Origin: a virus
Direction: 5' to 3' (one strand)
IMG/VR virus record: IMGVR_UViG_3300017917_003781
Location: 1-32,967 of that record
DNA length: 32,967 nt
Numbering within the stretch: the stretch's first letter is position 1; the number at the start of each line of letters is the position of its first letter. Under the pieces are notes generated by a model. The model made no database searches, was not told the DNA's origin, and worked only from the letters and a program-made list of their open reading frames with translations. Below are positions 14,048-30,411 of the stretch, in pieces. The translations under genes and the position numbers were made by a program.

Positions 14048-15332
14048 GAGCGTTCCTTTAGATAGATTATATAATTTTTTGCACGACTTGTGCAATCGCG
14101 ATATCATAATTTATGGCTTCAAACCATATGGCTCAAAAAAATTGTCTGATCTACAATTTTACCTAACAGACAGTGTGCCCTGGTTATATGGGCACACAAC
14201 TCCTGCTATCATTTTCCATGATCAAGAACCTCTACAATTTGATTTGTACAGCGAACAAGACATTGGTGCCTTGGCATTCGAAAGATTCAATCAACAGGCT
14301 CATCCTGAAATGTTAGCACAATTGTCCCAAATGCACATAAGAGGAGTCACTAAAACTCCGTATTCTGGCTACGATATGATGATGTTGTGCCACAGCGAAA
14401 AAAACAGTGCAGAAGTTGAAAAATATCAGTCTCGACATTTTGTGCCTGTGTATTACTGGAGTCATGCACTTATCGCTCGAGATTGGTTTAGATTTGCCGA
14501 GCATGATCCTGTGTTAGAACATAAAAATATTCAACAAGATTTTTTAATATACAATCGTGCTTGGTCTGGTACTAGAGAATACCGACTTAAATTTGCAGAA
14601 CTATTGGTCGCCAATGATCTAGTGGACTGTTGCAAAACAAGTTTCAACCCAGTTGATTCAGGCACACATTATCAAAAACACAAATATCAAAATAAGCAAT
14701 TTTCAATTTCAACTGCACTAGAATCTTACCTGCCAATGAACACACATTCTTCTACAGCCAGTGCAGATTACAATCATGATGACTACAGCAGTATTGGAAT
14801 TGAGGTGGTTTTAGAAACACTGTTTGATGATCAACGAAATCACCTAACAGAAAAACTGTTACGGCCCATAGCGTGTGGAGTACCATTTATTGCAGTTGCT
14901 ACTCCAGGAAGTTTGGCGTATTTAAGAGATTATGGCTTTAAAACATTTAGTCCAATCTTAAACGAAGACTATGATCAAGAACCAGATGCTGTAAAACGAC
15001 TGCACATGATCATAGCAGAAATGCTCAGGATAACCAACTTAGATACTGATGACAAAACTGCACTATGGGAAAAACTTTACGAAATTGCCAGGTACAACAA
15101 AAAATGGTTTTTTTCGTCTACGTTTCATGAAATGATTGTTGAAGAGTACAAGTACAATTTAAATAGGGCACTTGATACTATGGACCAGCACCGAACTGGC
15201 CTATGGTATAAACGCTTGGGTGAGATTGCCAGTCTACATCCTGAGATGGGAAAATATTACAACAATCCCAAACCAGGTAGAACACAAAAAGACCTAGACG
15301 ACTTTTATGCCTGGATCAATCAGGGTTCTTGA
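14046..15332 (+). CDS. Glycosyltransferase-like protein (exostosin/GT-B C-terminal type)
   Basis: Up to 428 residues. The C-terminal half carries LTEKLLRPIACGVPFIAVATPGSLAYLRDYGFKTF, split here only for description: the TEK..RPI..G.PF..V..PG.L..LR..GF.TF pattern of many phage and algal-virus glycosyltransferases. The ATG at 14046 has no SD, and the promoter of the divergent gene lies inside the first 17 codons, so translation may begin downstream, for example at a TTG near 14079. The donor and acceptor are unknown; glycosylation of virion protein or host envelope is possible. Confidence 0.65.
   Translation: MSVPLDRLYNFLHDLCNRDIIIYGFKPYGSKKLSDLQFYLTDSVPWLYGHTTPAIIFHDQEPLQFDLYSEQDIGALAFERFNQQAHPEMLAQLSQMHIRGVTKTPYSGYDMMMLCHSEKNSAEVEKYQSRHFVPVYYWSHALIARDWFRFAEHDPVLEHKNIQQDFLIYNRAWSGTREYRLKFAELLVANDLVDCCKTSFNPVDSGTHYQKHKYQNKQFSISTALESYLPMNTHSSTASADYNHDDYSSIGIEVVLETLFDDQRNHLTEKLLRPIACGVPFIAVATPGSLAYLRDYGFKTFSPILNEDYDQEPDAVKRLHMIIAEMLRITNLDTDDKTALWEKLYEIARYNKKWFFSSTFHEMIVEEYKYNLNRALDTMDQHRTGLWYKRLGEIASLHPEMGKYYNNPKPGRTQKDLDDFYAWINQGS
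14066..14095 (-). promoter_or_regulatory. Promoter of the sugar dehydrogenase, with palindrome
   Basis: TTGCAC, 18-nt spacer, TATAAT on the minus strand, followed by AAGGA and the ATG at 14047. A perfect 6-bp inverted repeat TTGCAC-N5-GTGCAA (14079-14095) covers the -35 and could be a regulator site. Confidence 0.6.
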
Positions 15333-15675
15333 CAATCCAGTATTGCCAGTTTGAGTCAGGTGGATTATCTACATATTGATCTAATCGCATGGACATGTGC
15401 TGATAAAATGTATCCATCTCACCATTCCAGCAGCCAATGAGGGTGTGCAAGGCACTGCGACAAAATTCCCAATTCTGCTGTCTATATTGCTCTATCAACT
15501 GTTGATGTATGGCTTTGTTGGCTTCCAATCTTGGAAACTCTGCCAATGGCAAGTTATCAATCACGCAATAGGTTTTTACCAACTGCTCCGATGGCATCAA
15601 TTTGAATGTATCTAGTTCCAAAACAGTGTGAGTGTTACTCACTTGTTCTACTGCATCGCCAAATATTATGTTCAT
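15316..15675 (-). CDS. Small protein, unknown
   Basis: 119 residues from the ATG at 15675, which has AAGGA 7 nt upstream (a TTG two codons earlier is not needed). Soluble, acidic, with several Trp near the C-terminus and a SALHTLIGCWNGEMDTFYQHM stretch in which a Trp and acidic residues may be conserved. It overlaps the glycosyltransferase tail-to-tail by 17 nt and is divergent from the phosphoesterase. No family recognised. Confidence 0.55.
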   Translation of the reverse strand: MNIIFGDAVEQVSNTHTVLELDTFKLMPSEQLVKTYCVIDNLPLAEFPRLEANKAIHQQLIEQYRQQNWEFCRSALHTLIGCWNGEMDTFYQHMSMRLDQYVDNPPDSNWQYWIVKNPD

Positions 15676-15700
15676 GATCAATTCCTTTTAAATATGTATC

Positions 15701-16492
15701 ATGCAATTAGCATTTGATTTAATTTCTGATTTACACATTGATTCTTGGGATAGAGACTTTGATTGGACTGGACAGGCCACCAGTCCACACTGCATTGTTG
15801 TGGGCGATGTCTGCCAAAATAGACAATTGTTGTACAAAACTCTTACACATCTCGGTCAGTGTTATCAAGCCGTGTTTTATGTTGATGGCAACGACGAACA
15901 TGTGAGATCTATTGACAATCTTGGCACCAGTTATCGAGATTTGGCCAAGCAAATTGAGAAAATACCCAATGTGGTATATCTACAAGACAACGTTGTGGTA
16001 ATAAACGGTGTGGCTGTTTTGGGTACCAATGGCTGGTGGGGATTTGATTTTGACAGTTCTTTAGATCCAGAAGAAGTTAGAGATTGGTGGTGCGACCATA
16101 ATTCATTAACACCGGAACATTACACTGCTGTTCGTAGAGCCAGCACTACAGATGCCAATTACATGATTGCCAGTGTAAGACGTTTACAGACTCACCAAGA
16201 TGTAAAGAAAATTGTCATGGTCACACATACAGTGCCCATGCCCGAACTTATCAGTCACGATATTGATTTGGCCAACAAACTCAAATTCAATATCATGGGC
16301 AACAGACACATGCTGAATGCGTTAGATGTAGACACTGAACGCAAGATAGATACCTGGTGCTTTGGCCACTATCATGGCAAAGTTGACCAGTATCGAGATG
16401 GCGTCCGGTATGTGAACAACTGCCGCGGTCGCGGTAATACCACATGGTCACAATATGTGTACCATCCCTTGCGTGTGGTTGTGGATTATTGA
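15701..16492 (+). CDS. Calcineurin-like metallophosphoesterase
   Basis: 263 residues with the metallophosphoesterase set: SDLHID (Asp10, His12), VVGDV (Asp36), GNDEH in place of GNHE, VTHTVP and GHYHG. These bind two metals for phosphomonoester or diester hydrolysis. It is distinct from the PlcP protein (no IIDGW or ESCTALVEHH). The substrate is unknown. No SD is visible, and the 25-nt gap to the divergent gene leaves its promoter inside that gene. It overlaps clpS tail-to-tail by 7 nt. Confidence 0.8.
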   Translation: MQLAFDLISDLHIDSWDRDFDWTGQATSPHCIVVGDVCQNRQLLYKTLTHLGQCYQAVFYVDGNDEHVRSIDNLGTSYRDLAKQIEKIPNVVYLQDNVVVINGVAVLGTNGWWGFDFDSSLDPEEVRDWWCDHNSLTPEHYTAVRRASTTDANYMIASVRRLQTHQDVKKIVMVTHTVPMPELISHDIDLANKLKFNIMGNRHMLNALDVDTERKIDTWCFGHYHGKVDQYRDGVRYVNNCRGRGNTTWSQYVYHPLRVVVDY

Positions 16493-16797
16493 ATTGTTTC
16501 GGGTTCCAGTTTGATCTGGAGAGGATAGTTTTGTGCTCTAGCACTCACAGTGACTTCAACACCTTTTTGTTCGGCAATTTCATAAGGCAGCACCGCCACA
16601 CAAGCAGAGCCTTCTTCGTGAATGTCGATGGTGATTTGTTCTGCTGTTTCAGGGGTGTATTCAAAATATTCAACCAAACTTTCAACCACAAATTCCATCG
16701 AAGTTGTGTTGTCATTTAGGTAGACCACGCGAAACATAGGTGGCTCTTTAACGGCCTCTGATGGTTTGATTCGTGTGCGGGTATCGCTCTGTGCCAT
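16486..16797 (-). CDS. clpS: ClpS adaptor protein
   Basis: 103 residues, the usual length for ClpS. The P.FRVVYLNDN.TSMEFVVESL..YF segment and C-terminal AEQKGVEV match the N-degron adaptor that delivers proteins with Leu, Phe, Tyr or Trp N-termini to a Clp unfoldase. In E. coli it works with ClpA, yet this window encodes ClpX and ClpP, so it may serve host ClpAP or be adapted to another partner. It lies downstream of hsp20 behind a strong hairpin. Confidence 0.9.
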   Translation of the reverse strand: MAQSDTRTRIKPSEAVKEPPMFRVVYLNDNTTSMEFVVESLVEYFEYTPETAEQITIDIHEEGSACVAVLPYEIAEQKGVEVTVSARAQNYPLQIKLEPETIQ

Positions 16798-16823
16798 TTC
16801 TATTCCTTGTTTTGCTATACAAT

Positions 16824-16856
16824 CAGTGGCAGCACGATTGCTGCCACTGTATTTAC
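16824..16856 (-). promoter_or_regulatory. Hairpin with late-type GTAAATA upstream of clpS
   Basis: GTAAATA (16850-16856, minus strand) leads directly into a perfect 11-bp hairpin (16824-16834 with 16839-16849, loop of 4). There is no T tract, so it is not a standard terminator. The arrangement resembles the TATAAATA-hairpin pairs ahead of clpP and hsp20. Confidence 0.5.
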
Positions 16857-16865
16857 ACTATTATA

Positions 16866-17318
16866 TTAGGAAGTGTAGGTGATCGCAATGGTCTTTGGCT
16901 TGGCGTCTTCGGGCACTTCACGCTTTAGGTGAACGCTTAGGATACCAAGTTCAAGATGAGCATTGGTGATTTCCATGTGATCCGCAAGTTGAAACTCACG
17001 ACGGAAATCTCTATTGCTGATACCTTTGTGCAGGTAGTTTGGCACAACCTTTTCGCTGTCGGGCTGGTACTCTTTGCCTTCAATGATCAAGAACTTTTTG
17101 TCCTTGGTAACTGAAAGATTGTCCAATCCAAATCCGGCCACCGCAAGACTGATCATGTACTCATCATCATTGATTTGTACAATGTTGTAGGGTGGATAGT
17201 TTGTCGAGGACTGTTGAGCACTCACACGCATGAGTTCATCAAACATGTTATCGAAACCGATACCAAATTTGGTGATTGCGGGAAGGTCGAAACTACGAAG
17301 GGTAAGAGTTTTTGTCAT
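16866..17318 (-). CDS. hsp20: Small heat-shock protein Hsp20/IbpA-like
   Basis: 150 residues. The alpha-crystallin domain (about 40-140) starts with YPPYNIVQINDDEYMISLAVAGF and includes LIIEGKEY and GILSVHLKREVPE, closely like IbpA and the Hsp20 of T4-type cyanophages. It is an ATP-independent holdase that keeps unfolded proteins soluble, plausibly for virion protein folding or as a partner of the Clp system. AAGGAG precedes the ATG. A late promoter TATAAATA (17383-17390) lies 64 nt upstream. Confidence 0.93.
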   Translation of the reverse strand: MTKTLTLRSFDLPAITKFGIGFDNMFDELMRVSAQQSSTNYPPYNIVQINDDEYMISLAVAGFGLDNLSVTKDKKFLIIEGKEYQPDSEKVVPNYLHKGISNRDFRREFQLADHMEITNAHLELGILSVHLKREVPEDAKPKTIAITYTS

Positions 17319-17352
17319 TTGTTTTCTCCTTTAATAAGCAAGATGACTTTAA

Positions 17353-17378
17353 TGTAGACCCCACCATGGGCATCTACA
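17353..17378 (-). other. Leader hairpin of hsp20
   Basis: TGTAGA (17353-17358) pairs with TCTACA (17373-17378), with an inner CCC/GGG step. It begins 4 nt after the late promoter, so it would sit at the very 5' end of the hsp20 mRNA and may stabilise it. Confidence 0.45.
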
Positions 17379-17382
17379 AGTG

Positions 17383-17390
17383 TATTTATA
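17383..17390 (-). promoter_or_regulatory. T4-like late promoter for hsp20
   Basis: TATAAATA on the minus strand, in the gap between the 82-residue gene and hsp20. The predicted start falls at the beginning of the leader hairpin. Confidence 0.55.
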
Positions 17391-17400
17391 CAGGAAATCT

Positions 17401-17649
17401 CTAATGTTGTCTAGTTTTCATTGGCTCAATCAGTCGGTATTCGAGCCACTTGTGTTGGGAGGCGTTCCACGTCATTGCAAAATAAGTGTAGAGTTTGTCG
17501 TCATCAAAAGTCACACGATGTTTGAGTTTTATTGTTTTTTCCGTGTACTTGATTCGATCATTTTGATTGGCCCATTTTACCAAATGGTATCTAATCAACA
17601 GCAAATTTGAAGAGGCTTGCTCTTGATCAAGTTCAAATTCAATGTACAT
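17401..17649 (-). CDS. Small conserved-looking phage protein, unknown
   Basis: 82 residues, beginning MYIEFELDQEQ and holding the stretch HRVTFDDDKLYTYFAMTW; it looks like a short alpha/beta protein. Its ATG overlaps the bS21 stop as TGATG, so it is coupled to the clpX-bS21 operon. I have the impression that similar proteins occur in T4-type phages but cannot name a family or a function. Confidence 0.6.
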   Translation of the reverse strand: MYIEFELDQEQASSNLLLIRYHLVKWANQNDRIKYTEKTIKLKHRVTFDDDKLYTYFAMTWNASQHKWLEYRLIEPMKTRQH

Positions 17650-17873
17650 CAGTACAGTTTTTTGGGCAGTGCTTGATCAGCCAATTGTCTGCGCCAGCGA
17701 TTTCGGGCAGCACTGCGTTTGAGTTTTCGAGCAGTAGTAGGTTTGGTGTAGAATTCACGATCACGTAAATCGTTAAGAATGCCCGACGTTTGAATTTTTT
17801 TCTTGAATTTGCGCAGGGCTTTTTCTACATTGCCATCAGCGACTAATACCGATCTTCCTCGCAATTTGTTCAT
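17649..17873 (-). CDS. rpsU: Ribosomal protein bS21
   Basis: 74 residues, the normal size for bS21. It shows the family pattern ADGNVEKALRKFKKKIQTSGIL, KPTTARKLKR and an Arg/Lys-rich C-terminus. bS21 sits on the 30S platform near the anti-Shine-Dalgarno end of 16S rRNA and helps initiation. Phage copies are known from large phages and may bias host ribosomes toward phage mRNA. The start lies inside the clpX end (38-nt overlap), giving tight coupling, and the stop overlaps the next start. Confidence 0.93.
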   Translation of the reverse strand: MNKLRGRSVLVADGNVEKALRKFKKKIQTSGILNDLRDREFYTKPTTARKLKRSAARNRWRRQLADQALPKKLY

Positions 17874-19068
17874 TGGGTGCCTTTAATTCTGTAGGAGTAT
17901 TTACCAGGTCGGTTGTGATTTGCACTTGGTCAATGCCTTGCTCTTTGTAAAGAGCCAAATTAAACATGTGTGGCAATAGCACTCGTTCAAGTTCGCTGTG
18001 CAAACCGCGAGCACCTGTTTTGTTTTTTAAGGTGTTTTTGGCCACTTGTTCCAGTGCAGATTTATCAAAGTCCAACGCAATTTGATCTTGTGCAAACAAC
18101 CACTGGTATTGCTCTACATAACTGTGTTTGATTTCTGTAAGGATGGAAATCAAATCTTCCAGTGCCAGTTCGTTGAGTGCAACCCAACTTGGAAATCTGC
18201 CCACAAATTCTGGTATCATACCAAATTTAACCAAGTCATCAGGGGTGACTTGATCTAGATCACCTGCACGATCAACCGACACTTCGGCCTGAAATCCAAT
18301 GGAGGTTCCACGAAGCCTAGTCTTCACAATATTATCCAGCCCTACAAATGCACCACCGGCAATGAACAAAATGTTGGTGGTATCAATTTCCACAGTTTCG
18401 CCATTGGGGTGTTTGCGTCCTCCGGTGGGTGTGATGCGGCATTTGGTGCCTTCTACCAATTTCAGCAGGGCCTGTTGCACGCCTTCACCTGATACATCTC
18501 GGGTGATGCTTTGACTTTCTGAGCGTCTGCTGATCTTGTCAATTTCATCCACAAACACAATACCTTGCTGTGTTTTTTCAACGTCGTTGCCTGATGCTGT
18601 GTACAAGCGACTAATCAAACTTTCAACATCATCGCCTACATATCCTGCTTCGGTCAAACTGGTAGCATCAGCAATCACAAAAGGCACGTCAAGATATCTT
18701 GCTACTGATCTTGCCAGCAGTGTTTTGCCTGATCCAGTGGGACCCAGCATGAGAATATTGACTTTTTCAATTTCAGTATTTTTGTCCTGATTGCGTATGC
18801 GTTTGTAGTGGTTGGCAATAGCCACACTCAATACCATTTTGGCTCGATCTTGCCCTATAACATATTGATTGAGATGTTTTAGGATTTCTCTTGGATCAAG
18901 ACTGACATTTTCTACTGCCTTTACTGCTGGATCATCTACCAAGAGTGTTTGGCAAAGTTCCACACATTCGTTGCAGATAGCAACATTTTCACCTACTATG
19001 AGTTTGACCACTGCATCTTTGTGCTTGCCACAAAAACTACAGTTATCAAGGGTTTCAGTTTGTTTCAT
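17836..19068 (-). CDS. clpX: ClpX, AAA+ unfoldase of ClpXP
   Basis: 410 residues, complete. The N-terminal zinc domain has Cys10, Cys13, Cys32 and Cys35. Next come Walker A GPTGSGKT (109-116), the pore loop GYVG (142-145), Walker B VFVDEID (171-177), the RKH loop (218-220), the IGF ClpP-docking loop (257-259), the arginine finger in IPEFVGRF and sensor-2 GARGL. All parts for unfolding, translocation and ClpP docking are intact. With the phage clpP it can plausibly form a complete protease. Its ATG overlaps the upstream stop as ATGA, and bS21 starts inside its end. Confidence 0.95.
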   Translation of the reverse strand: MKQTETLDNCSFCGKHKDAVVKLIVGENVAICNECVELCQTLLVDDPAVKAVENVSLDPREILKHLNQYVIGQDRAKMVLSVAIANHYKRIRNQDKNTEIEKVNILMLGPTGSGKTLLARSVARYLDVPFVIADATSLTEAGYVGDDVESLISRLYTASGNDVEKTQQGIVFVDEIDKISRRSESQSITRDVSGEGVQQALLKLVEGTKCRITPTGGRKHPNGETVEIDTTNILFIAGGAFVGLDNIVKTRLRGTSIGFQAEVSVDRAGDLDQVTPDDLVKFGMIPEFVGRFPSWVALNELALEDLISILTEIKHSYVEQYQWLFAQDQIALDFDKSALEQVAKNTLKNKTGARGLHSELERVLLPHMFNLALYKEQGIDQVQITTDLVNTPTELKAPNEQIARKIGISR

Positions 19069-20525
19069 GCGTTGTTATTGGTTTGGTTAAGGCGCTCAGC
19101 CACTTGTTCTCTCTCAATATCACTCAACAAATCTGGATCATATTCACCAGTGGAGATTTTGTTTATGAGATGATCAATGTATGCTGTGTCGTAAGTATAG
19201 TTATCTGTAGAATTTTTGTCAATAATAATCCACTCGTCTCCGTTGAACTTATACAACTGACTGGGCATGCGATCTGTTTTTACAAAAGTATCTCCGCGAT
19301 TGGGCGCCGCAGGAAATTCTCTTCCAAAACTGGTTTGGGTGTATTTTGGATCATTCCACGGCAATCGATCAATGTGGCCGCGGGCCAGTTTGGCTCTTTG
19401 TGCTTTAATTGTGTCATCGGGATTGGCGGCTTTCCAAGCCTTAATTGCTGCTTTTTCGGATTCAGTGATATCTGCATTCAATACCTCAACTTCTTCCGCA
19501 GTCCATGGGCGTGGTTCTACACTAGGTATTTGCTCTGGAGGCACGATGGCCATTGCGGCTTGATCTTCTTTGATAGGATCTGGCGCTACCATGGGTTTGA
19601 GATTTCCAAAATGCACAAACGGTCGGGCCAAATATGGATAGCGTTCATGCCACGGACGTTCATCTTTGGGGTGCTCCACACTGGCCTGAATCTGCTCCAC
19701 TTGTTGTTCAGAGAGTGGACCATCGTCTGGTTCATACTGAGGCTCGTCGTGTACAAATCCTCCGGTGCCTTGTCTTGCCCATTCAAACTGTTTGTTGGCT
19801 GCTAGGATCAGTGTGAGTGCCAATGGGTCAAACACCAACACAATCATTATGATCATCCAACGCACTGCTCGTTCCAACAAATTGGCATCAGGGTTGTCTC
19901 CGTAGAGCAATGCCGCAATATATTTTATTGGCCCTACTTCTGCTTCAACTTTGCGTACCTCGGCAGCAATAGGCGCACGGGCATCGCTAAGTTCCGCGAT
20001 AGACTTCTGCGACTGTGTGATTTCGGCCTGAAGTCTAGCACGTTCCTTCTGCTGGGAGCGACGTAGAGCCACTGCTTTGTCGGCACCTTTTTCATCTGTT
20101 GAGCGGCCCAATACTTGATCCACTCCTTCATCCATCTGTTTAAGTGCCTTACGGTTTGCTTCTATATTCTCTTTTTCAGTACGAATCTTTTCATCATATA
20201 TGGCAATCTTGCTGGTGACATCACCTGACACCAGGCTTTGATCCGAATGTGCCTTTGATAGGTATCCGAAGATACCCATGGAGGTCAGGATCATGAGAAA
20301 TGCCACTGCTGGTATCAAATACAGTTTGAACACAATACCGGCACGCCGCCAGTTGTTGTGCAACCATACGGTGGCAACAATTTTGCCCAATTCCAATGAA
20401 CCGCCCATGATGATCACAGGTATGGTGGCTGCTGAAAATATCGCAACCAAGCCGGCTACTGAATAATAAGCAGCCACGGCGCTTAATAGTAATGCGGTGG
20501 CTAAAATTCCAAGTCCAAATATCAT
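19065..20525 (-). CDS. Multi-pass membrane protein with coiled coil
   Basis: 486 residues. Membrane helices at about 3-25, 28-50 and 68-90 are followed by a long charged coiled coil (about 105-190), another helix at about 222-245 and a large acidic, Pro-rich cytoplasmic-type tail to 486. I recognise no domain, though proteins of this shape are common in T4-type phages. It lies directly before clpX in one operon (ATGA overlap), so it may be a partner or substrate of ClpXP, or simply a co-transcribed envelope protein. Confidence 0.65.
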   Translation of the reverse strand: MIFGLGILATALLLSAVAAYYSVAGLVAIFSAATIPVIIMGGSLELGKIVATVWLHNNWRRAGIVFKLYLIPAVAFLMILTSMGIFGYLSKAHSDQSLVSGDVTSKIAIYDEKIRTEKENIEANRKALKQMDEGVDQVLGRSTDEKGADKAVALRRSQQKERARLQAEITQSQKSIAELSDARAPIAAEVRKVEAEVGPIKYIAALLYGDNPDANLLERAVRWMIIMIVLVFDPLALTLILAANKQFEWARQGTGGFVHDEPQYEPDDGPLSEQQVEQIQASVEHPKDERPWHERYPYLARPFVHFGNLKPMVAPDPIKEDQAAMAIVPPEQIPSVEPRPWTAEEVEVLNADITESEKAAIKAWKAANPDDTIKAQRAKLARGHIDRLPWNDPKYTQTSFGREFPAAPNRGDTFVKTDRMPSQLYKFNGDEWIIIDKNSTDNYTYDTAYIDHLINKISTGEYDPDLLSDIEREQVAERLNQTNNNA

Positions 20526-20530
20526 AAAAT

Positions 20531-20854
20531 TTATTTACCGGGTGGTGCCGTGGAGATTACCGCATGCTTTACTGCCACCCATGTGGCAAAGGTCTTGTCT
20601 GGTACATCGAACCAAACTGGCACTGTTTGCGTGGGGTTCAACCCCCAAAGATTGTTGTGTTCCAATCTGCGTCTGACTCTGCTTTGAGTGCGCCAGTCGT
20701 TGCCAAACATCTTCCTTGCTTCGTTCATAATTGCATACCATTCTTTGGTAGAGTGCAATTGAAACCAAATACGGTGCATGACCAAAGGCGTTACTTTAAG
20801 TGAGTCAAGTGACTCAGGGATACTCAACGCAGAGCCCTCAATTTTGACAGTCAT
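20531..20854 (-). CDS. Small protein, unknown; first gene of the clpX operon
   Basis: 107 residues from the ATG at 20854 (AAGG seven bases upstream); a longer in-frame start at 20938 would run into the structured leader. Soluble, with MHRIWFQLHSTKEWYAIMNEARKMFG in the middle and a Pro/Gly C-terminus. It sits 5 nt ahead of the membrane protein gene. No family recognised. Confidence 0.55.
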   Translation of the reverse strand: MTVKIEGSALSIPESLDSLKVTPLVMHRIWFQLHSTKEWYAIMNEARKMFGNDWRTQSRVRRRLEHNNLWGLNPTQTVPVWFDVPDKTFATWVAVKHAVISTAPPGK

Positions 20855-20970
20855 TTCTAACCTTTCTAGATTTACCCTCTCGGCATACACCCAGGGTACC
20901 AGCCTGGGTTTTGATCCTAAGATCGAGGTCCTTGTCACAACCTACAGGATTTACGTCCACATGCCACGGT
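20855..20970 (-). other. Structured 5' leader of the clpX-bS21 operon
   Basis: No gene is seen here. The minus-strand RNA could form several hairpins: ACCCAGG with CCTGGGT (20889-20909 region), GATCTTAGGATC, and an outer pairing of GGCATGT with GTATGCC that would close about 80 nt into one domain. It lies directly between the 69-nt RNA/terminator and the first gene. It may regulate translation or stability; no known riboswitch class is recognised. Confidence 0.4.
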
Positions 20971-21008
20971 AAAAAAGCAGGCCCGGGTTATCGATTCACC
21001 CTGCTTTT
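20971..21008 (-). terminator. Strong intrinsic terminator
   Basis: A 9-bp perfect stem (20973-20981 with 21000-21008), an inner GGGT/ACCC pairing within the 18-nt loop, and TTTTTT on the minus strand. It could end both the ligase operon transcript and the short RNA from 21039. Confidence 0.8.
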
Positions 21009-21039
21009 CCATTAGACAACCCAACCTCTTTGATCATGC
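20971..21039 (-). ncRNA. Candidate ~69-nt RNA or leader peptide with attenuator
   Basis: A consensus promoter (21046-21074) would start RNA near 21039. An intrinsic terminator (stem AAAAGCAGG/CCTGCTTTT, 20973-21008, then T6 to 20971) would end it. The RNA contains a 13-codon frame (ATG 21037, TGA 20996-20998; MIKEVGLSNGKAG) whose last codons lie in the terminator stem. It could be a small RNA or an attenuator for the clpX operon. A GCAGG near the 5' end could compete with the same sequence in the stem. Confidence 0.45.
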
Positions 21040-21045
21040 CCTGCA

Positions 21046-21074
21046 ATTATAACAACACTCAACGTCATTGTCAA
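21046..21074 (-). promoter_or_regulatory. Consensus sigma70 promoter upstream of the short RNA
   Basis: TTGACA, 17-nt spacer, TATAAT with an extended -10 TG: both hexamers are perfect. It overlaps the stop codon of the 153-residue gene. The only element before the terminator is the short RNA. Confidence 0.85.
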
Positions 21075-21532
21075 GTGTTTTGTTTTTGTTTGACAAGATT
21101 GCACACAGTTTGAAACTGCTCATAAGCATCACGCACAGCCGGATGAGTCATCAACTGTTCTGCTTCATCTTGCAAGGCACGTATGCCTGCTTCTGCAATA
21201 TCTCTGGCACTGTTGATGTTAAGTGTAGCAAGGTCGTCGCCAAATTCTTTGGCCAACTTTTGCCACGCCTTTAATTGTCTTTGAGTCAAAGGTGTGCGAT
21301 GCGGACGCATTTCACTTGCTTTACGAATTGCATCACACATGGCATCTTCGGCAACACGGCCAGCCGCAATCAATGCCGCATGGTTAGGATTGATATTGTA
21401 TCTGCGACTTTGGCCGCCTGGATAACACATCACAATATGTGTGCCTTTGCTAAAACTATCTACCCATTCTTGGTTGTATTCAGCCACAGGTGCATACCTG
21501 CGACCTACTTTTTCGTAAAAGATTTTATTCAT
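21071..21532 (-). CDS. Conserved-looking phage protein, unknown
   Basis: 153 residues from the ATG at 21532, which has GGAG five bases upstream (a start eight codons earlier is less likely). Begins MNKIFYEKVGRRYAPVAEY, with MCYPGGQSRRY, GRVAEDAMCDAIRKASEM, and a helical, Ala-rich C-terminal half. It reminds me of phage proteins of unknown role; no catalytic motif is obvious. It overlaps the lipoprotein end by 8 nt and is the last gene of the long operon from 25863. Confidence 0.6.
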   Translation of the reverse strand: MNKIFYEKVGRRYAPVAEYNQEWVDSFSKGTHIVMCYPGGQSRRYNINPNHAALIAAGRVAEDAMCDAIRKASEMRPHRTPLTQRQLKAWQKLAKEFGDDLATLNINSARDIAEAGIRALQDEAEQLMTHPAVRDAYEQFQTVCNLVKQKQNT

Positions 21533-22865
21533 TAAAACTCCATTGTGTTCGAGCATATCCTACATAAACAGTATTTTTAAGCCAGGATACAGTGGCTATA
21601 ATAAAATTCCATCGGTCTTTTGTCTTAATTGGCAACATAATACCACTGATATTAGACTCTACACTGTTTGCCACCGCATGTTGGCTGGTCAAGGTGTCAA
21701 AGTCTTGCTTGCGGCTTTGTTTAAATTTTCCAGTACCGTCATTTATCCAAACTTGATTGCCGCTGTCTGTTTGGTTGGTATTCATCAACCAAATGTCTGG
21801 ATGGCCGTCACCATTAAAGTCAATAACCTTGGGAGTATAACTTGCCAGGGCACCTTTATTGTATCCTGTCATGCTGGTATCTGTTGCATCACTAAACACA
21901 TAACCGCCAAGATTGTAGTAGATTTGTACCATGCTTTGACTGCCTAGCACTCTGGTCACAGCATTGTCAAACAAATAACTTATCACTATCACATCTTTGC
22001 GACCGTCACCGTTCACATCCACAATTTGACAACTGACATCATGACTTCTATTCACCGCATCATCTGTGTTGTTTTTGTCAAAATATGGCACTGGCAAAGC
22101 ACTTTGGTATATGGGCTCCATTTTGCTGTTTATTTTGTAGATAAGTTGACTGGCGTGCAAGCCAACTTGGTCAGTCAGCACCACTTGCGGAGCACCTGAT
22201 CCATCTAAATCACCGGCACACACTCCTGACCCAGCAAACGGATAGTTGATGGTACGAAAGGTGTCTTTGGCTCTGTAAGTGAATCCATTGGATTGGTTGT
22301 TAATCCACATTTCACCGTTGCTGTTGATCACGTCCAGCCAACCATCCTGGTTCACATCCAGCACGGTGGTTCCGTGATTCCAAGTTAGTCCATCTAAATC
22401 TATTCGTTGATGACTCTGTCCAGGTCTGGAGAAAAACACCACTGATGCGTTATTTTCTAACAGATTAGGACCATCAGTAAATCCTGGAAAGAAAATATCA
22501 TCTATGCCGTCGTGGTTGAAGTCAGCCACTTGGGGATAATTAACTGACCACGCAAACTCACTGCCCAACACATCTGCGGTGGCATCTGTTGCTGTACCTG
22601 TACTAGGCAATTTATAGATTTTTACAGTGGATGTTGGAGAACTATTTGCCAGCCAACCACTCACTATCACATAACTTTCGCCTGTGGTATCAAACTTTCC
22701 AGCAGTTAGACTGGGCACATAAACACTAGATGTAGATATTGTGCCAGCGGCTACAAGTATAGCATTAACTGGTGTGTTGTCATTGGCGCTTGAGCCTCCG
22801 CCGCCGCCACCTCCACCACAACCTGTTAGAGCCACTGCCAGTGCAGGGATTACAAGTTTCCACAT
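21525..22865 (-). CDS. Surface lipoprotein with FG-GAP/VCBS calcium-binding repeats
   Basis: 446 residues. The signal peptide ends at the lipobox LTGC (Cys16), followed by a run of eight glycines as a flexible tether. The rest is a likely beta-propeller with DxNxDG-type motifs at about 115-123 (DFNHDGIDD), 170-178 (DVNQDGWLD), 219-, 283-291 (DVNGDGRKD) and 349-357 (DFNGDGHPD), typical of FG-GAP/integrin-like repeats that bind calcium. GGAG lies 6 nt upstream of the ATG. It is likely displayed on the outer membrane of the infected cell, possibly to block superinfection or mediate adhesion; a virion role is less likely for a lipoprotein. Confidence 0.85.
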   Translation of the reverse strand: MWKLVIPALAVALTGCGGGGGGGGSSANDNTPVNAILVAAGTISTSSVYVPSLTAGKFDTTGESYVIVSGWLANSSPTSTVKIYKLPSTGTATDATADVLGSEFAWSVNYPQVADFNHDGIDDIFFPGFTDGPNLLENNASVVFFSRPGQSHQRIDLDGLTWNHGTTVLDVNQDGWLDVINSNGEMWINNQSNGFTYRAKDTFRTINYPFAGSGVCAGDLDGSGAPQVVLTDQVGLHASQLIYKINSKMEPIYQSALPVPYFDKNNTDDAVNRSHDVSCQIVDVNGDGRKDVIVISYLFDNAVTRVLGSQSMVQIYYNLGGYVFSDATDTSMTGYNKGALASYTPKVIDFNGDGHPDIWLMNTNQTDSGNQVWINDGTGKFKQSRKQDFDTLTSQHAVANSVESNISGIMLPIKTKDRWNFIIATVSWLKNTVYVGYARTQWSFNE

Positions 22866-22878
22866 AGGAATCTCCTAG

Positions 22879-23106
22879 TTATTCAAACCATTTGATAAGT
22901 GTATTCATCGCTTCTACCAACTGCGTGTTCTTTGCCACATCCTCAGGATGCAGCCAATAACCAGCAGGGTTGGTTTCTGTCTTGGGATTCTTTTTCCACT
23001 CACTGAGTTCTTTTTTGAGATAGTTACGATGCTCTTTCAAGGTCAGCAAAGTAATACGATCAGCAGTCTCGCCGTCGATGGTAATGGGTCCAATTCGTTT
23101 ACTCAT
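22879..23106 (-). CDS. Small protein, unknown
   Basis: 75 residues, mostly helical and basic, with RITLLTLKEHRNYLKKELSEW in the middle. Its ATG overlaps the upstream stop as TAATG, and the lipoprotein gene follows after 13 nt. No family recognised. Confidence 0.6.
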   Translation of the reverse strand: MSKRIGPITIDGETADRITLLTLKEHRNYLKKELSEWKKNPKTETNPAGYWLHPEDVAKNTQLVEAMNTLIKWFE

Positions 23107-23513
23107 TAATATGTCCTATCCACTTTGATATTGGTCAGTCCAGCAACCATTTGGAACTTGTCCCAAGCGTCTTTCGCCGCGGGGTTGCGTTCCAGTTCTT
23201 CGTCAGGCAAGATAGTTTCCAACCAGTATTCAGATCTGCGATACGGACGAGATCCAAACTTGCGTGGTTGGTGGAACTTGCCCAAGTCCCACAAAGCAAG
23301 ACTGACTGATCGATAGTGATCCTCATCCTCATTCTGGCAAGCCCGCCACTCAGGGTTTGATCCAAAGCGATAGCCTTTCCAGATGTCCGACCATTGTTCA
23401 TCGTCATGCGGATCGAAGTCTGTGCGAGAGATCAACACCAACACATCGTCGATGTCCACACGACCTTCCACAATGTCTCGAACACATCGACTATAACTCA
23501 ATCCAATTTTCAT
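23106..23513 (-). CDS. Phage protein, unknown
   Basis: 135 residues, acidic and Trp-rich. Begins MKIGLSYSRCVRDIVEG, with a YRFGSNPEWRACQNEDEDHYR stretch and a YWLETILPDEE segment. Its ATG overlaps the ligase stop as ATGA and its stop overlaps the next start as TAATG, so translation is tightly linked to DNA ligase. No catalytic motif seen. Confidence 0.6.
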   Translation of the reverse strand: MKIGLSYSRCVRDIVEGRVDIDDVLVLISRTDFDPHDDEQWSDIWKGYRFGSNPEWRACQNEDEDHYRSVSLALWDLGKFHQPRKFGSRPYRRSEYWLETILPDEELERNPAAKDAWDKFQMVAGLTNIKVDRTY

Positions 23514-24883
23514 ACTTTTTCGCCTGCTTCAAAATCACGGAATCTCAAGAACCGGGGGAATCGGAGGCTGTATGTTCCGTCTTGGTTTTGGGTGACTGCG
23601 TCTGCTTGGACTTCAACCAAGTGACCAAGCAACTGATCCCTACTGGCCCAATACTCATCACGAAGAGTATCACTAAACCCACTGCCAACATTAACGCGAA
23701 TTCTACGGTCATTGTCATCTCCTTCACAAATTATAGCACCCAAGCGGTTTTTGTTCCTACCAGTTCCTTCTTCAAATCCCACAATGCTGAGATCAACTGA
23801 GATGGTGGGCTTCCATTTCATCCAGAAGTCGGACCGCTTGCACTGGTAAGGTGCATCCATGCTCTTGATCATGATGCCTTCGAAGCCACCTTCTACAGCG
23901 GCTTCCGCATAGCGTTGCATGATGTCATGTCCTTCTGCTGTGTCCAAATCCACTTCCAATCCGGGCATGATGCGCAAACAGTTGGTTTGCTCCAGGCCAG
24001 CACGAGCCGATTCCAACCATTCTAAACGTTTGTATTGCTGAACATTCCAGTGCCCTTCTTGAAAAGCATCAAGTGGAATGATATCAAAAATGTGATACAC
24101 CATGCCTGTGGTTTCAGCATTGCTTTTGCGATGTGCTTGGCGCATGAGTTGTTGAAAACTCTCGCCCACAATCTCACCGTCCAGCACATAATGTCCGCCT
24201 GTGCCACGACCGTGTTGAAAGTGCTTGCGAGCATCTTCAATGGCATCAGCAATCTGCGGAAAGTTTTCAAACTCTTTGCCATTGCGGCTGTACAGTGTGA
24301 CATTGGCGCCACTTACCACTGCCAACACACGCACGCCATCTAACTTGCACTCCAGGCGCTTGATACCCTTTAGTTTCTTGGGCTGATCTGTGGAGTCCTG
24401 TGCTAACTGACACGAGAAAATTGGAATGCGATAATCAGTCTTGCCCACAACCTTGTTGATGGTTTTTTCGGAGATGCCACACCGCAGGTCCTTGATCAGC
24501 ACACGTCGAGCCAGCCCGTTCCACTCTTCAGAGTCAAACTGCTGACTCATTTGCTCAATGGTTTCTCTTGCACGATTGCCAGTGATGTATCTGGTGCGCA
24601 GGGCTTCTAACATGGCCCAGAACTGTGTCCAAGGATTGTCACGGCCGGTAAGTCCTTCAGTCTCTGGCACTTGCCGGATGCCAAATACATAGAATGGATT
24701 GTAGGCTTGATAGCAGTTGAACAAAAAACACTGAGCATCGGCACTGCCCAACTTTGCGGCCATCAGGGCTTTTTCAATCACCTTCTCTTTGTGAATGCGA
24801 CTGTCTGAACTTTCAAGATCACGTATCCAGCCTGCGGCCACTACACCCTCGAATCTTTCATTGCTGTAATCAATTTCATCCAT
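23510..24883 (-). CDS. ATP-dependent DNA ligase (T4 gp30-like)
   Basis: 457 residues, similar to T4 ligase (487). An N-terminal helical part (1-150) includes LIKDLRCGISEKTINKV. The nucleotidyltransferase core has motif I ECKLDGVR (adenylated Lys180), motif III-like DGEIVG, motif IV EGIMIK and motif V WMKWKP. A C-terminal OB-fold follows. The enzyme seals nicks in phage DNA replication and repair using ATP. It lies 12 nt behind the MGLDMYAY gene and is coupled downstream by ATGA. Confidence 0.93.
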   Translation of the reverse strand: MDEIDYSNERFEGVVAAGWIRDLESSDSRIHKEKVIEKALMAAKLGSADAQCFLFNCYQAYNPFYVFGIRQVPETEGLTGRDNPWTQFWAMLEALRTRYITGNRARETIEQMSQQFDSEEWNGLARRVLIKDLRCGISEKTINKVVGKTDYRIPIFSCQLAQDSTDQPKKLKGIKRLECKLDGVRVLAVVSGANVTLYSRNGKEFENFPQIADAIEDARKHFQHGRGTGGHYVLDGEIVGESFQQLMRQAHRKSNAETTGMVYHIFDIIPLDAFQEGHWNVQQYKRLEWLESARAGLEQTNCLRIMPGLEVDLDTAEGHDIMQRYAEAAVEGGFEGIMIKSMDAPYQCKRSDFWMKWKPTISVDLSIVGFEEGTGRNKNRLGAIICEGDDNDRRIRVNVGSGFSDTLRDEYWASRDQLLGHLVEVQADAVTQNQDGTYSLRFPRFLRFRDFEAGEKV

Positions 24884-24895
24884 ATACTTAATGCC

Positions 24896-25309
24896 TTACC
24901 ACGATGAGTTATAGAACACTTTCAAACCCATGAACATTTCTGCTCGAGCAGTTTTGATAAACGCCAGGTCCTGATCGTAGTAGTGCTGATCCGAATTGTT
25001 GCCAAAGAAGAATCCAGTTGTGGGCGGCAGTTGGCGTTTCTTAACTGCCTTTTCAAGTTCGTCCAAGTCCTCAGCAGTGAGTTCCATTTCAACGCCGTTA
25101 AAACTGTCATAACTTAATTTTTTTTGTTCTGCTAGAGTTTCCATCCAACCATGCAGGTTAGGATGTTTGCGCCAGTAGGCAATTTCACGTGGCTTGCTGA
25201 CATTTTTGTTCACATACTCTTTGGCATTTTCGTCCCACTCAGCACCTTCATAGTAGTCATGTTGCTGACCTTCACGAGTGGCCACATAGGCATACATATC
25301 AAGACCCAT
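24896..25309 (-). CDS. MGLDMY family phage protein
   Basis: 137 residues from the ATG at 25309, preceded by AAGGAG; an in-frame start 34 codons upstream lacks an SD. MGLDMYAYVA, IAYWRKHPNLHGWM, GVEMELTAEDLDELEKAV, LPPTTGFFFG and the C-terminal FYNSSW make up a pattern common to uncharacterised phage and bacterial proteins. Function unknown. It starts inside the previous 55-residue gene (11-nt overlap). Confidence 0.7.
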   Translation of the reverse strand: MGLDMYAYVATREGQQHDYYEGAEWDENAKEYVNKNVSKPREIAYWRKHPNLHGWMETLAEQKKLSYDSFNGVEMELTAEDLDELEKAVKKRQLPPTTGFFFGNNSDQHYYDQDLAFIKTARAEMFMGLKVFYNSSW

Positions 25310-25466
25310 TTTTTTCTCCTTGTTGATGACGATATTCGCGTTTGAGCCAATATTTGTATCTGTTGAAATATTCTTGCGGAGTTGCAGTTGGCTCATGGCC
25401 ATTCCATGCAAGGGATTCCTCTACATGCTGGAACCACATTTCCTTACACCAAATACGGAATTTCAT
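25299..25466 (-). CDS. Small phage protein (55 aa)
   Basis: Start at 25466 chosen for GGAG five bases upstream; it also overlaps the upstream stop as ATGA. Begins MKFRIWCKEMWFQHVEES and has a Tyr/Arg-rich C-terminal half. No function assigned. Confidence 0.55.
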   Translation of the reverse strand: MKFRIWCKEMWFQHVEESLAWNGHEPTATPQEYFNRYKYWLKREYRHQQGEKNGS

Positions 25467-25582
25467 AGCATCTCCCATGTGATGGCTCGGGGATTCAACG
25501 CTCGGCGGGCTTGCCAGTAAGGCAGTGCCCATGCCACATTGGATTCAACCACAATCAGTCGTTTGTTGAAATATACTTTCAT
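25463..25582 (-). CDS. Very small protein (39 aa)
   Basis: ATG at 25580-25582, TGA at 25463-25465. Sequence begins MKVYFNKRLIVVESNVAW. It overlaps the genes on both sides by ATGA, which is the main evidence that it is translated. Function unknown. Confidence 0.5.
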   Translation of the reverse strand: MKVYFNKRLIVVESNVAWALPYWQARRALNPRAITWEML

Positions 25583-25863
25583 ACTGCCTCCAACATGTTG
25601 GCAGGCACTTTCCATAAGCCCTGTGGAGTACGAACCGTCACATATTTGATAGCAATCTTGCTCACGGTGCCCGACATGGTCATGCCACGTTTGGTGCTGG
25701 TAAACTTTACCTGATCACCACAGGCAAACTGACGGATATTGTGTTTGCGTAAACTGGCCTTGGCAAATTTCACTGCGTCGATGATGCTGTCGAGTTCGGC
25801 GTTTGTAAACTCGCCAAACATGATCTTAGAGTTAACTTGCTGGATTGTGCTAAGTCTTTCCAT
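25579..25863 (-). CDS. Small protein with KOW/SH3-like C-terminal half, unknown
   Basis: 94 residues. The first half is helical (MFGEFTNAELDSIIDAVKFAK). The second half looks like a small beta barrel with a GDQVKFTS...GMTMSGTVSKI...KYVTV pattern resembling SH3/KOW folds that bind RNA or protein. AAGGAG precedes the ATG, and it is driven by the promoter at 25895-25923 with a ~25-nt leader. It heads a long operon that includes DNA ligase. Confidence 0.65.
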   Translation of the reverse strand: MERLSTIQQVNSKIMFGEFTNAELDSIIDAVKFAKASLRKHNIRQFACGDQVKFTSTKRGMTMSGTVSKIAIKYVTVRTPQGLWKVPANMLEAV

Positions 25864-25890
25864 TTCGGGCTCCTTTGTTGCTTACTATGC

Positions 25891-26019
25891 CTAAATTATA
25901 GCAAAAACGGCTTTTCTGGTCAACCAAAATAATAACCCTACAATCACTAGGACTTCTACTACCGTAAAATTAGTACGATAGTAGTATTTCTGTATTTGGC
26001 GTTGTATTTTGGTCCACAT
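25891..26019 (-). CDS. Tiny membrane protein (42 aa), leaderless mRNA candidate
   Basis: ATG at 26017-26019, TAG at 25891-25893. MWTKIQRQIQKYYYRTNFTV leads into a membrane helix (about 20-34, VVEVLVIVGLLFW) and a basic end. The promoter at 26026-26054 places +1 exactly on the ATG, so it has no leader or SD. The next promoter (25895-25923) is embedded in its 3' end. Function unknown. Confidence 0.5.
   Translation of the reverse strand: MWTKIQRQIQKYYYRTNFTVVEVLVIVGLLFWLTRKAVFAII
25895..25923 (-). promoter_or_regulatory. Early-type sigma70 promoter of the ligase operon
   Basis: TTGACC, 17-nt spacer ending TTTTTGC, TATAAT. A member of the family also found at 3106 and 26026, here with a normal leader and SD. 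Confidence 0.85.
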
Positions 26020-26025
26020 GCGCCG

Positions 26026-26054
26026 ATTATAGCAAATAGGGCATTATTGGTCAA
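26026..26054 (-). promoter_or_regulatory. Early-type sigma70 promoter of the 42-aa gene
   Basis: TTGACC, 17-nt spacer ending ATTTGC, TATAAT, then 6 nt to the ATG. Identical geometry to the promoter at 3106-3134. Confidence 0.85.
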
Positions 26055-26072
26055 CCAGCAAAAATGTATACT

Positions 26073-28097
26073 TTAGTATACAGGAGTCACAGCAGGCACA
26101 GGAGTCACTGCTAGGGTAGCACTGGGGGTGGTATTGAGGTCCAATCTTGCGGCACCAAGCACTTGATTGTTTTGGCCCTCACGTAAGGCGCCCACAATGG
26201 CCTGGCCACCAATAATGCTGGTGTTGGCCACTTGTTCAAGAAAGTATGCAGGACCACAGGAATCGGTTTGGGTGCCATATAATGGAAGTTGTTGAACAAA
26301 GCCCATGGTACTCACACGCTCGCCGGCTTGAAGATTGGTGTAGTCAATACCAGCGTATGTTTGATAAGTTTTTTCTGTGCTGAGTACATTGCCAATTACC
26401 GACCATGCTGTATTCAATGCTGTTACATTGGCCACGACTTGAGCGTTAGCATTGTTGTAAATATTTGTAATGTTGCCATTGGCTCTGGTAATGTTAGTAA
26501 CTACCACTGTGGCGTTGGCTGCGCCAGCAATTGCCACATAAGCAGAATTGATGTTGGCAATGTTACTGGCATCCAACGTCACAATATTGGCCATGGCAGA
26601 TGTTGCTACAGCCAGTTGGGCCGCAATATTACTGCTATCAATTGCTGTACCTATAACATCACAAGTAGTAATAGTACCATCAGGGCCAGTACCTGTGGCT
26701 ACATTACTGGAATAGAAACTGGCCACTGACGAATCTATGGCTGTGGTCTGTGCTTGAATTAATGGCAATCCACTCATGGTATTGAGTCCACTAATGGTTG
26801 TGGGTAACCAGTAATTGGTGTCGATAATGTTGGTACCAGCAGGCACATCTTGTTGAGCACGATAAAAAACTGTGGTCGGACTCAATTGTGCCAGGCCATT
26901 TACTGCTGGTGCATTGGCAACCACAGCATTGGCCAAATAGGCTTTATTGATATCCCAGGGTGTTCTTGGCGTGGTATTGATTGTGGCAGACAATGCAGGT
27001 AAGGTGCTGTTGGTAATATTAGTTATTTGTTCAAACGCCACTTGCACCGCTTTGTTGGCCACTGCTTGTGCTGGTGGTATTACTTTGCTTAGATCTTCAC
27101 AACCGTTGGGTGATGCTAGATATGCTGACACATTGTCAGATAGATTCATGTTTACGGAACCGTCTGTACCATACACTGGCACTGGACCTTCTGGAGTGGG
27201 TGTCTGTAATGTGGTGTAACTGTTTGGAAATATCTTGGTTTGGTCCAGCAGGTCTGCCATTGAAGTTATACCAGGAGTTGTCACTTGCAGTATACTTAAT
27301 ACCTGTTGCAAGTCAGTGCCAGTCACATTGGCCATACCTTGATAAGCCAATCGTTGTAACCGCAAATATTCATTGTCTGAAACTGTGCCAGGTCCTGCCA
27401 ATAATGTTTGTATTTCTTTGGTTGAAAGTCCTGCAGCCAACAGTGGTGTTTGCACAGGGCCAAACACTCCTCCGACCATGTTACCTTCAGCGGCCAATTG
27501 ACGCAACAGTCCAGCCGGTGTGCCATACAATTTGAGATCGTTCAAGTTGCTCAAATTACCTTGGTTGGCCAAGTCAATGGAAAAATTACCAAAATCTGGA
27601 TTGACATCACTAATGCTATTTGTGGTCAGGGCATCCATGTTGGTAAAAGTAGGACCGAGATATGTTTGAGCGTTAACTGCACTATTGATATATTGGTTTG
27701 TAGTATTAATGTAACCTTGCACAGCCATGAAGCCTTGCGAAAAACGACCTGCGTCACTGTTGCCCAAATAGTTGTTGCCAGTCTGCTGGATCAGTCCAGC
27801 AAATCCTGCAGGTGTGGTTGTTACTGGAGTTAGATTGGTAAATGCAGCAGGAATGCTGTCGCCCAGCGCGGGTATGGTTGTATTACCAATTGTCATCAAT
27901 GAAGATAGTGTTGTGGCATTAGCAAATGATGCCGCAGTGTAGTTGGCCACAGCAGTGAGAAAATTAGCAACAGGAGAGGCAGCATTGAATGTTGCAATAG
28001 CAGTGGTCAATGCAGATGGCAATGGATTTATGCCAGTGTTATTCAGTAAGGCTGACGCCGCTGTCAACTGCAATGGAGTTAAAACACCTTGTGCCAT
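26073..28097 (-). CDS. Virion/tail protein with carbohydrate-binding-like module
   Basis: 674 residues, rich in Asn, Thr, Ala and Gly, with few charges, as in virion proteins. The N-terminal 250 residues (…GYINTTNQYINSAVNAQTYLG…, LANQGNLSNLNDL) resemble proteins next to the PAAR spike in T4-type phages. At about 379-432 a TPWDINKAY...FYRAQQDVPAGTNIIDTNYW stretch looks like a CBM5/12-type module common in tail fibres. The rest (450-640) is a repetitive Ala/Asn/Ile helix or beta-rich region. Overlaps the PAAR gene as TAATG, so it probably belongs to the baseplate or tail tip; receptor binding is a guess. Confidence 0.65.
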   Translation of the reverse strand: MAQGVLTPLQLTAASALLNNTGINPLPSALTTAIATFNAASPVANFLTAVANYTAASFANATTLSSLMTIGNTTIPALGDSIPAAFTNLTPVTTTPAGFAGLIQQTGNNYLGNSDAGRFSQGFMAVQGYINTTNQYINSAVNAQTYLGPTFTNMDALTTNSISDVNPDFGNFSIDLANQGNLSNLNDLKLYGTPAGLLRQLAAEGNMVGGVFGPVQTPLLAAGLSTKEIQTLLAGPGTVSDNEYLRLQRLAYQGMANVTGTDLQQVLSILQVTTPGITSMADLLDQTKIFPNSYTTLQTPTPEGPVPVYGTDGSVNMNLSDNVSAYLASPNGCEDLSKVIPPAQAVANKAVQVAFEQITNITNSTLPALSATINTTPRTPWDINKAYLANAVVANAPAVNGLAQLSPTTVFYRAQQDVPAGTNIIDTNYWLPTTISGLNTMSGLPLIQAQTTAIDSSVASFYSSNVATGTGPDGTITTCDVIGTAIDSSNIAAQLAVATSAMANIVTLDASNIANINSAYVAIAGAANATVVVTNITRANGNITNIYNNANAQVVANVTALNTAWSVIGNVLSTEKTYQTYAGIDYTNLQAGERVSTMGFVQQLPLYGTQTDSCGPAYFLEQVANTSIIGGQAIVGALREGQNNQVLGAARLDLNTTPSATLAVTPVPAVTPVY

Positions 28098-28390
28098 TAT
28101 GCCGCCACTCCAACATTGCTTGATCCGCCTGATCTAGCATGACCGCAAGTGTCAACATCACCAGTCAATACCATGGCAATACCATTTGCTCTTACTGTGG
28201 TTGAGGACCCAACAGTTGTGGCATAACAATGAATAGGAGGGCATCCTCTACGCCCGCAACAGGGATGTGGAGATACAGAGTCGCCGCTCAGCGATACAGA
28301 ACGACCATTAATGCGCACATTTGGACTTCCGGGTCCGGTGATTACTCCACCGGCTCCGTTTGCATCACCTACTCGTTGTATTCCTGCCAT
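28097..28390 (-). CDS. PAAR-repeat spike-tip protein (gp5.4-like)
   Basis: 97 residues, Gly-rich, with the PAAR-type pattern (…GAGGVITGPGSPNVRINGRSVSLSGDSVSPHPCC…, then VGSSTTVRANGIAMVLTGDVDTCGH…). PAAR proteins form a sharp metal-stabilised cone on the baseplate spike and pierce the outer membrane. His and Cys residues that could hold the metal are visible. It is coupled to the 674-residue virion gene. Confidence 0.85.
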   Translation of the reverse strand: MAGIQRVGDANGAGGVITGPGSPNVRINGRSVSLSGDSVSPHPCCGRRGCPPIHCYATTVGSSTTVRANGIAMVLTGDVDTCGHARSGGSSNVGVAA

Positions 28391-30219: not shown

Positions 30220-30411
30220 TTACCAATGCCTAATTGTGTTTGCTATGATAAACCCACAGGTTATCACATGTATTATAACCCAAAACGTTTTGAAAAACAA
30301 GGCCCATCGAGCTTCACGCAAGGTTAAAATGGGCACATCTGGACGATCATCGTCTGTGTGCCCCATTAGGTGGCCTGTGGCTCGCGCCCAAATTTTTTCA
30401 AAACTGTTCAA
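30220..30411 (-). CDS. Small membrane protein (63 aa)
   Basis: A soluble N-terminal half with a [11 protein letters not shown] motif, then one membrane helix (about 38-58). ATG overlaps the isocitrate lyase stop as ATGA; nrdB starts 1 nt after its stop. Similar proteins seem common in marine T4-type phages. Function unknown. Confidence 0.6.

Follow-up and report, generated by a model that had tools for sequence, protein, structure and literature searches.

A conserved structured leader RNA ahead of a 107-aa gene and clpX in uncultivated large phages

The clpX operon and its promoter

The window of this study, which is the whole analyzed stretch of 32,967 nucleotides from an IMG/VR virus record, carries on its minus strand a gene cluster headed by a gene for a basic protein of 107 amino acid residues (20531-20854). 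This gene is followed by one for a 486-aa protein whose N-terminal part is hydrophobic (19065-20525), by clpX (17836-19068; NCBIfam ClpX, E 2e-158) and by genes whose products matched PHROG families for ribosomal protein S21 (17649-17873), Hsp20 (16866-17318) and a ClpS-like protein (16486-16797), all on the minus strand. Comparison of the operon context in 51 non-identical copies showed that the 486-aa gene and clpX were downstream in all of them and that the order 107aa-486aa-clpX was constant (51/51). The S21, Hsp20 and ClpS-like genes were found downstream in 48, 46 and 44 of the 51 copies, respectively. On the other side of the locus, the gene upstream in the window had a homolog in just 28 of the 51 copies.

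Several other genes of the window are also on the minus strand. A ClpP-like gene (397-975) joins those for ClpS-like protein, ClpX, Hsp20 and S21 as a phage set. A gene for isocitrate lyase (30408-31550; NCBIfam equivalog, E 6.6e-192) is an unusual metabolic gene beside ribonucleotide reductase genes. As its match begins at model position 48, the gene may start farther upstream or its product may have a short N-terminus. In addition, the window encodes a PstS phosphate-binding protein (6287-7291; NCBIfam equivalog, E 7.8e-121), a PAAR-repeat spike-tip protein (28097-28390) and a homolog of the UV-damage endonuclease UvdE (9407-10438).

Ahead of the clpX operon, the initial annotation had reported a perfect sigma70-type promoter, TTGACA-17-TATAAT. 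This promoter (21046-21074, minus strand) agrees with the consensus at 12 of 12 positions and is the sole such match within 15000-27000. It is nearly invariant among 88 distinct relatives, of which 79 have TTGACA, 78 have TATAAT and 76 have the 17-nt spacer. To this extent the results bear out the initial annotation: a strong promoter precedes the clpX operon and makes an RNA that looks regulatory. An imperfect inverted repeat, AACACT...AGTGTT, extends across the -35 box and the spacer (21053-21079, minus strand) and may be an operator; only part of the close relatives retain it. Elsewhere in the window, two near-perfect promoters of the form TTGACC-17-TATAAT are found about 130 bp apart on the minus strand (26054-26026 and 25923-25895). 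Both have TG before the -10 box and they have TTTGCTATAAT in common. The first of them would transcribe a small ORF, whose end contains the second.

In 88 distinct copies, the gap between the -10 box and an invariant GCATG was 6 or 8 bases, and the window sequence after the promoter begins with GGGCATG. The transcript start is therefore expected at GCATG or slightly 5' of it.

Extent, fold and covariation of the leader RNA

The related loci were gathered from IMG/VR by searches with the 107-aa gene and the gene next to it. In these loci the stretch from the promoter to the start codon is conserved as a whole. Within it, a conserved structured leader RNA of about 185 nt (20855-21039, minus strand; covariance model R1, 180 bits, E 8e-44) begins with the invariant GCATG, where the transcript is predicted to start, and ends at the base preceding the ATG of the 107-aa gene. 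In the numbering of this element, position p corresponds to position 21040-p of the window. The phage contigs of IMG/VR contained 99 distinct versions of the RNA, or 105 when the gene was included in the comparison, and 88-89 distinct copies were aligned. The 14 larger phage records had a single copy each, while one record without the 107-aa gene had none.

The feature placed by the initial annotation at 20971-21074 is present, but this interval covers just the 5' third of the element, as the RNA reaches 20855. That annotation had interpreted it as a 13-codon frame followed by a strong terminator, which would form an attenuator or a short stand-alone small RNA. A frame of 13 codons, MIKEVGLSNGKAG, can indeed be read from the ATG at 21037; in the 88 distinct copies, however, the frame from the equivalent ATG reaches a stop after 6 to 62 codons, and no peptide frame is conserved. 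The stem AAAAGCAGG/CCTGCTTTT ends in the window with six T's (20976-20971), which is the observation that favors attenuation. The terminator scan of the window did not call this stem and T-run because the loop is longer than the limit of the scan. Among the 88 distinct copies the T-run after the stem is found in the window only, where it aligns as the window's own version of the 3' arm of a conserved helix, P2. Most of its T's form this 3' arm in the fold, leaving no free U-tract. Moreover, the 71-nt RNA that reaches to the T-run has a folding z of -0.46, and 61 of 200 shuffled sequences folded as well. What did hold up is the GCAGG stem, that is, P2, which is maintained through compensatory changes across the 88 distinct relatives.

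Given that the U-run occurs in the window alone and that the frame is not conserved, an intrinsic terminator and attenuation were rejected. The conserved RNA runs on into the next gene, and no 3' end of its own is apparent before that gene. Transcription that ends at 20971 in the absence of leader-peptide translation, or a short terminated small RNA, is consequently regarded as highly improbable.

The structure was examined on two alignments. A sequence-only MAFFT alignment of the 88 distinct copies (A2) served for the first covariation scan, which was made free of structural assumptions; the other was a covariance-model alignment (A3). The top covarying pairs of the structure-free scan trace the helices. 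There are nine of these, eight of them nested and the ninth, P1', a proposed pseudoknot between two domains; all coordinates below refer to the minus strand.

Domain 1 (20945-21023) is formed by S1b (21023-21020/20948-20945) and S1a (21017-21013/20959-20955), which surround helices B (21012-21009/20969-20966) and P2 (21008-21000/20981-20973). B and P2 together occupy 20966-21012, and P2 is the suspected terminator stem. S1b and S1a were paired in 90.7 and 94.6% of cells, respectively, and pairs 21-113 and 27-99 of A3 exceeded a tree-aware null, in which substitutions were redistributed branch by branch along the tree. Of the 9 pairs of P2, 8 had changes on both sides and two were significant against the same null.

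Domain 2 (20866-20934) is formed by D (20934-20930/20870-20866) and D' (20928-20925/20879-20876), which surround hairpins E and F. Three pairs of D and D' were significant against the tree-aware null (131-218, 132-217, and 138-204 of A3). In the clade of the window, helix D is short and has one mismatch. Hairpin E, GATC/GATC (20913-20924), was paired in 98% of cells with many double changes, and its pair 142-153 was significant. Hairpin F, CCCAGG/CCTGGG (20890-20908), has a conserved loop, CTGGTAC, and both sides changed at 5 of its 6 pairs.

The proposed pseudoknot P1' (20882-20965) pairs GGCA of domain 1 (20965-20962) with TGCC of domain 2 (20885-20882). It was paired in 99.2% of cells and is mostly invariant; its outermost pair was GC in 62 copies, GU in 20 and AU in 5. 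This near-invariance and the changes of the outermost pair lend moderate support to a pseudoknot that would join the two domains. None of helices B, F, and P1' was individually significant against the tree-aware null. An alternative closing helix, GCATG/TATGC, would join the TGC used by P1' to the 5' GCATG. It is just as possible and can always pair, yet it is invariant and hence uninformative. As GCATG/TATGC and GGCA/TGCC are mutually exclusive, a switch between the two could be possible.

Across the proposed helices of A2, 88.8% of cells were paired compared with 78.4% after shuffling, and there were 503 double-changed cells compared with 172.5. Sliding the partner by 1 to 3 columns lowered the double-changed cells to 53 to 139. 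The corresponding figures for A3 were 92.6 and 77.8% paired and 630 and 198 double-changed cells; these lean toward the proposed structure because A3 was fitted to it. Kinship among sequences inflates such counts, for which reason the tree-aware null was run. All significant pairs, 4 of 4 in A2 and 10 of 10 in A3, were in or beside the proposed helices and none was found elsewhere. The helices with significant pairs were E, S1b, and D in A2 and E, S1b, S1a, D', P2, and D in A3. The structure is thus conserved by compensatory changes, as expected of a structured cis-regulatory leader. Folding energy alone was unexceptional (median z -0.08), and thermodynamic folding was not significant. Finally, several unpaired stretches are highly conserved, which are GCATGANCA, TAGGNTGNGACA, AAAACC, and CTGGTACC.

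The possibility that the structure reaches into the coding region was considered and rejected, as the covarying pairs there resemble clade noise. At codons 2 and 8 of the 107-aa gene (20831-20854, minus strand), the third base is identical in 89 of 89 aligned copies, and the early coding region of this gene may be under extra constraint.

The 107-aa gene and comparison with known RNAs

The Shine-Dalgarno sequence AAGG (20861-20864, minus strand) forms the 3' edge of the conserved RNA. It precedes the ATG by a few bases and is kept in 88 of 88 aligned copies. The RNA was directly upstream of the 107-aa gene in 275 of 275 loci that have the gene and enough upstream sequence, a number that comes from overlapping fetches. 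Across genomes it therefore lies in the 5' UTR of one and the same gene, which is also expected of a cis-regulatory leader. Similarly, RNA copies identified with a DNA pattern independent of the gene were followed by the 107-aa gene except where the stretch ends first; every RNA copy on a long enough contig has it. Moreover, seven loci with the 486-aa gene but with no 107-aa gene directly ahead of it had no RNA (L086, L088-L090, L095, L096, and L100).

So strict a tie to one gene is also compatible with a small-molecule sensor, or with an RNA that is the partner in a ribonucleoprotein. In the latter case the RNA would act in trans, for example joined to the 107-aa protein in such a particle, and would be co-transcribed with the gene of this protein and perhaps processed from the mRNA. 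Its single copy, its strong structure and the one-to-one co-occurrence with a small basic protein are all in keeping with this explanation. However, neither a terminator nor a processing signal lies between the RNA and the ATG, the conservation ends at the Shine-Dalgarno sequence itself, and the operon context is constant. We thus consider a trans-acting RNA unlikely.

Searches for known RNA families with the window returned zero matches to the 4227 families of Rfam 15 at the gathering threshold. Permissive Rfam searches with the window and six diverged loci gave matches at chance level only, far below threshold, and neither a tRNA nor a tmRNA was found. The manA model RF01745 had no match at E up to 10. 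In the reverse direction, model R1 gave noise of at most 3.6 bits on the stretch of S-CREM1 that holds manA and wcaG and no match on the whole S-CREM1 record. No credible copy of the RNA was found in three isolated-phage records, where one match of 14 bits (E 0.096) was treated as noise. No description of the leader element was found in the literature, within open-licence papers. As no known RNA family matches it, the leader RNA is probably a new gene-control RNA. As far as the searches reach, it appears to be confined to uncultivated large phages.

The nearest kinds of known elements are the autogenous operators of phages and the leader motifs of phages and metagenomes, such as manA and wcaG. 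The latter two are structured RNA motifs that occur in potential 5' UTRs of cyanophages and metagenomes, and ibpA chaperones are among the genes that manA RNAs are reported to precede (PMC2864571, PMC9964418). Similar to the leader RNA, they are structured phage RNAs in a 5' UTR position with no assigned ligand. Different from the leader RNA, which accompanies a single gene type, manA and wcaG accompany several.

The comparison with riboswitches bears on whether the two-domain, pseudoknotted RNA regulates the operon's translation in cis by binding a small metabolite or an ion. Its size, its conserved multi-helix architecture, the proposed pseudoknot, and the conserved unpaired stretches and loops directly before the Shine-Dalgarno sequence are all riboswitch-like. 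Most riboswitch classes control several types of genes and occur in bacteria. In contrast, this RNA is tied to one gene family, was found in phages only and has no assigned ligand. Together with the result for Rfam, this makes a riboswitch a possible but rather doubtful explanation.

Large lake phages with S21 and Clp/chaperone genes are also known from the bS21-encoding huge phages (PMC9723584). In these phages, S21 is on the reverse strand between structural genes, whereas in the window clpX precedes it on the same strand. The words "noncoding," "promoter," and "RNA structure" are absent from the text of PMC9723584.

Proposed control of the operon and its meaning

The 107-aa protein has a pI of 10.0, and the median pI of its family is 9.6. 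The family also has a conserved basic helix, WRxQxxVKRRL. Both features would suit nucleic-acid binding. No relative of the protein was found in Pfam, PHROG, NCBIfam or among PDB sequences, and no relative of its gene was found among isolated phages or among the host genomes of the genome collection. The AlphaFold2 model shows a small alpha/beta fold (mean pLDDT 79.8) with no significant structural match in PDB or BFVD. The best Foldseek match to it, a V/A-ATPase subunit, was not significant (E 0.057). VIA-align on an earlier model gave Z of up to 6.6, which is in the range that this tool calls common. As the model has no significant structural match, binding of RNA by the 107-aa protein is a guess.

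From the computed fold, promoter, position, one-to-one gene link, and operon, we infer a control of translation, its direction and its effector. In the reading that we favor, to which we give close to an even chance, the RNA is a cis-acting leader that controls translation of the 107aa-486aa-clpX-S21-Hsp20-ClpS operon with the 107-aa protein as the effector. Transcription would begin at GCATG or within two bases of it, and the RNA would fold into two domains, of which the first is a long hairpin with bulges (S1b-S1a-B-P2) and the second, D-D', holds hairpins E and F. The two domains would probably be locked together by the GGCA/TGCC pseudoknot. The 3' strand of helix D stops one base short of the Shine-Dalgarno sequence, which would put the folded state within the ribosome footprint, so that translation of the 107-aa gene would start more or less easily depending on whether the fold is held or released. 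Coupling would then pass this control to the genes behind it. Since the 107-aa protein is basic and co-occurs one-to-one with the RNA, its action as an autogenous translational repressor is our first guess for the effector, and a metabolite is the second.

Given that the Shine-Dalgarno sequence is predicted to be mostly unpaired in pseudoknot-free folds of 24 diverse copies at 37 C (median 0.71), no simple sequestration was seen. At this temperature, the result also weighs against an RNA thermometer, which could be imagined ahead of an operon that encodes Hsp20, ClpX, and ClpS. Known thermometers are also far less elaborate and conserved in structure, and none of their Rfam families matches. 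A thermometer ahead of this chaperone/protease operon is thus very improbable.

Control by the protein's own binding has a precedent in gene 32 of phages T4 and RB69, in which gp32 represses its own synthesis at a translational operator (PMC535899; post-transcriptional control in T4 is reviewed in PMC3014915). Similar to the leader RNA, this operator is a structured phage mRNA leader adjoining the ribosome-binding site, and the product of the gene behind it is the binder, as is proposed for the 107-aa protein. However, gp32 of T4 is a known single-stranded DNA-binding protein, whereas here a two-domain RNA of about 185 nt is found with an uncharacterized protein. The operator of T4 gene 32 is also much smaller than the leader RNA.

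Our results add an RNA family that has good statistical support, a proposed pseudoknot and no entry in Rfam, and they link an unannotated 107-aa protein family to a specific RNA. The RNA is a candidate phage-only riboswitch or autogenous operator, for which short synthetic RNAs suffice and phage culture is not needed. We suggest tentatively that it represents a new phage-confined riboswitch class or a new RNA-protein regulatory pair that might time a takeover operon of Clp, Hsp20, and S21. The operon that the leader RNA heads would give the phage control of protein quality and ribosomes through ClpX, ClpS, Hsp20, and S21, and the RNA would thus be a concrete handle on the timing of host takeover by such phages.
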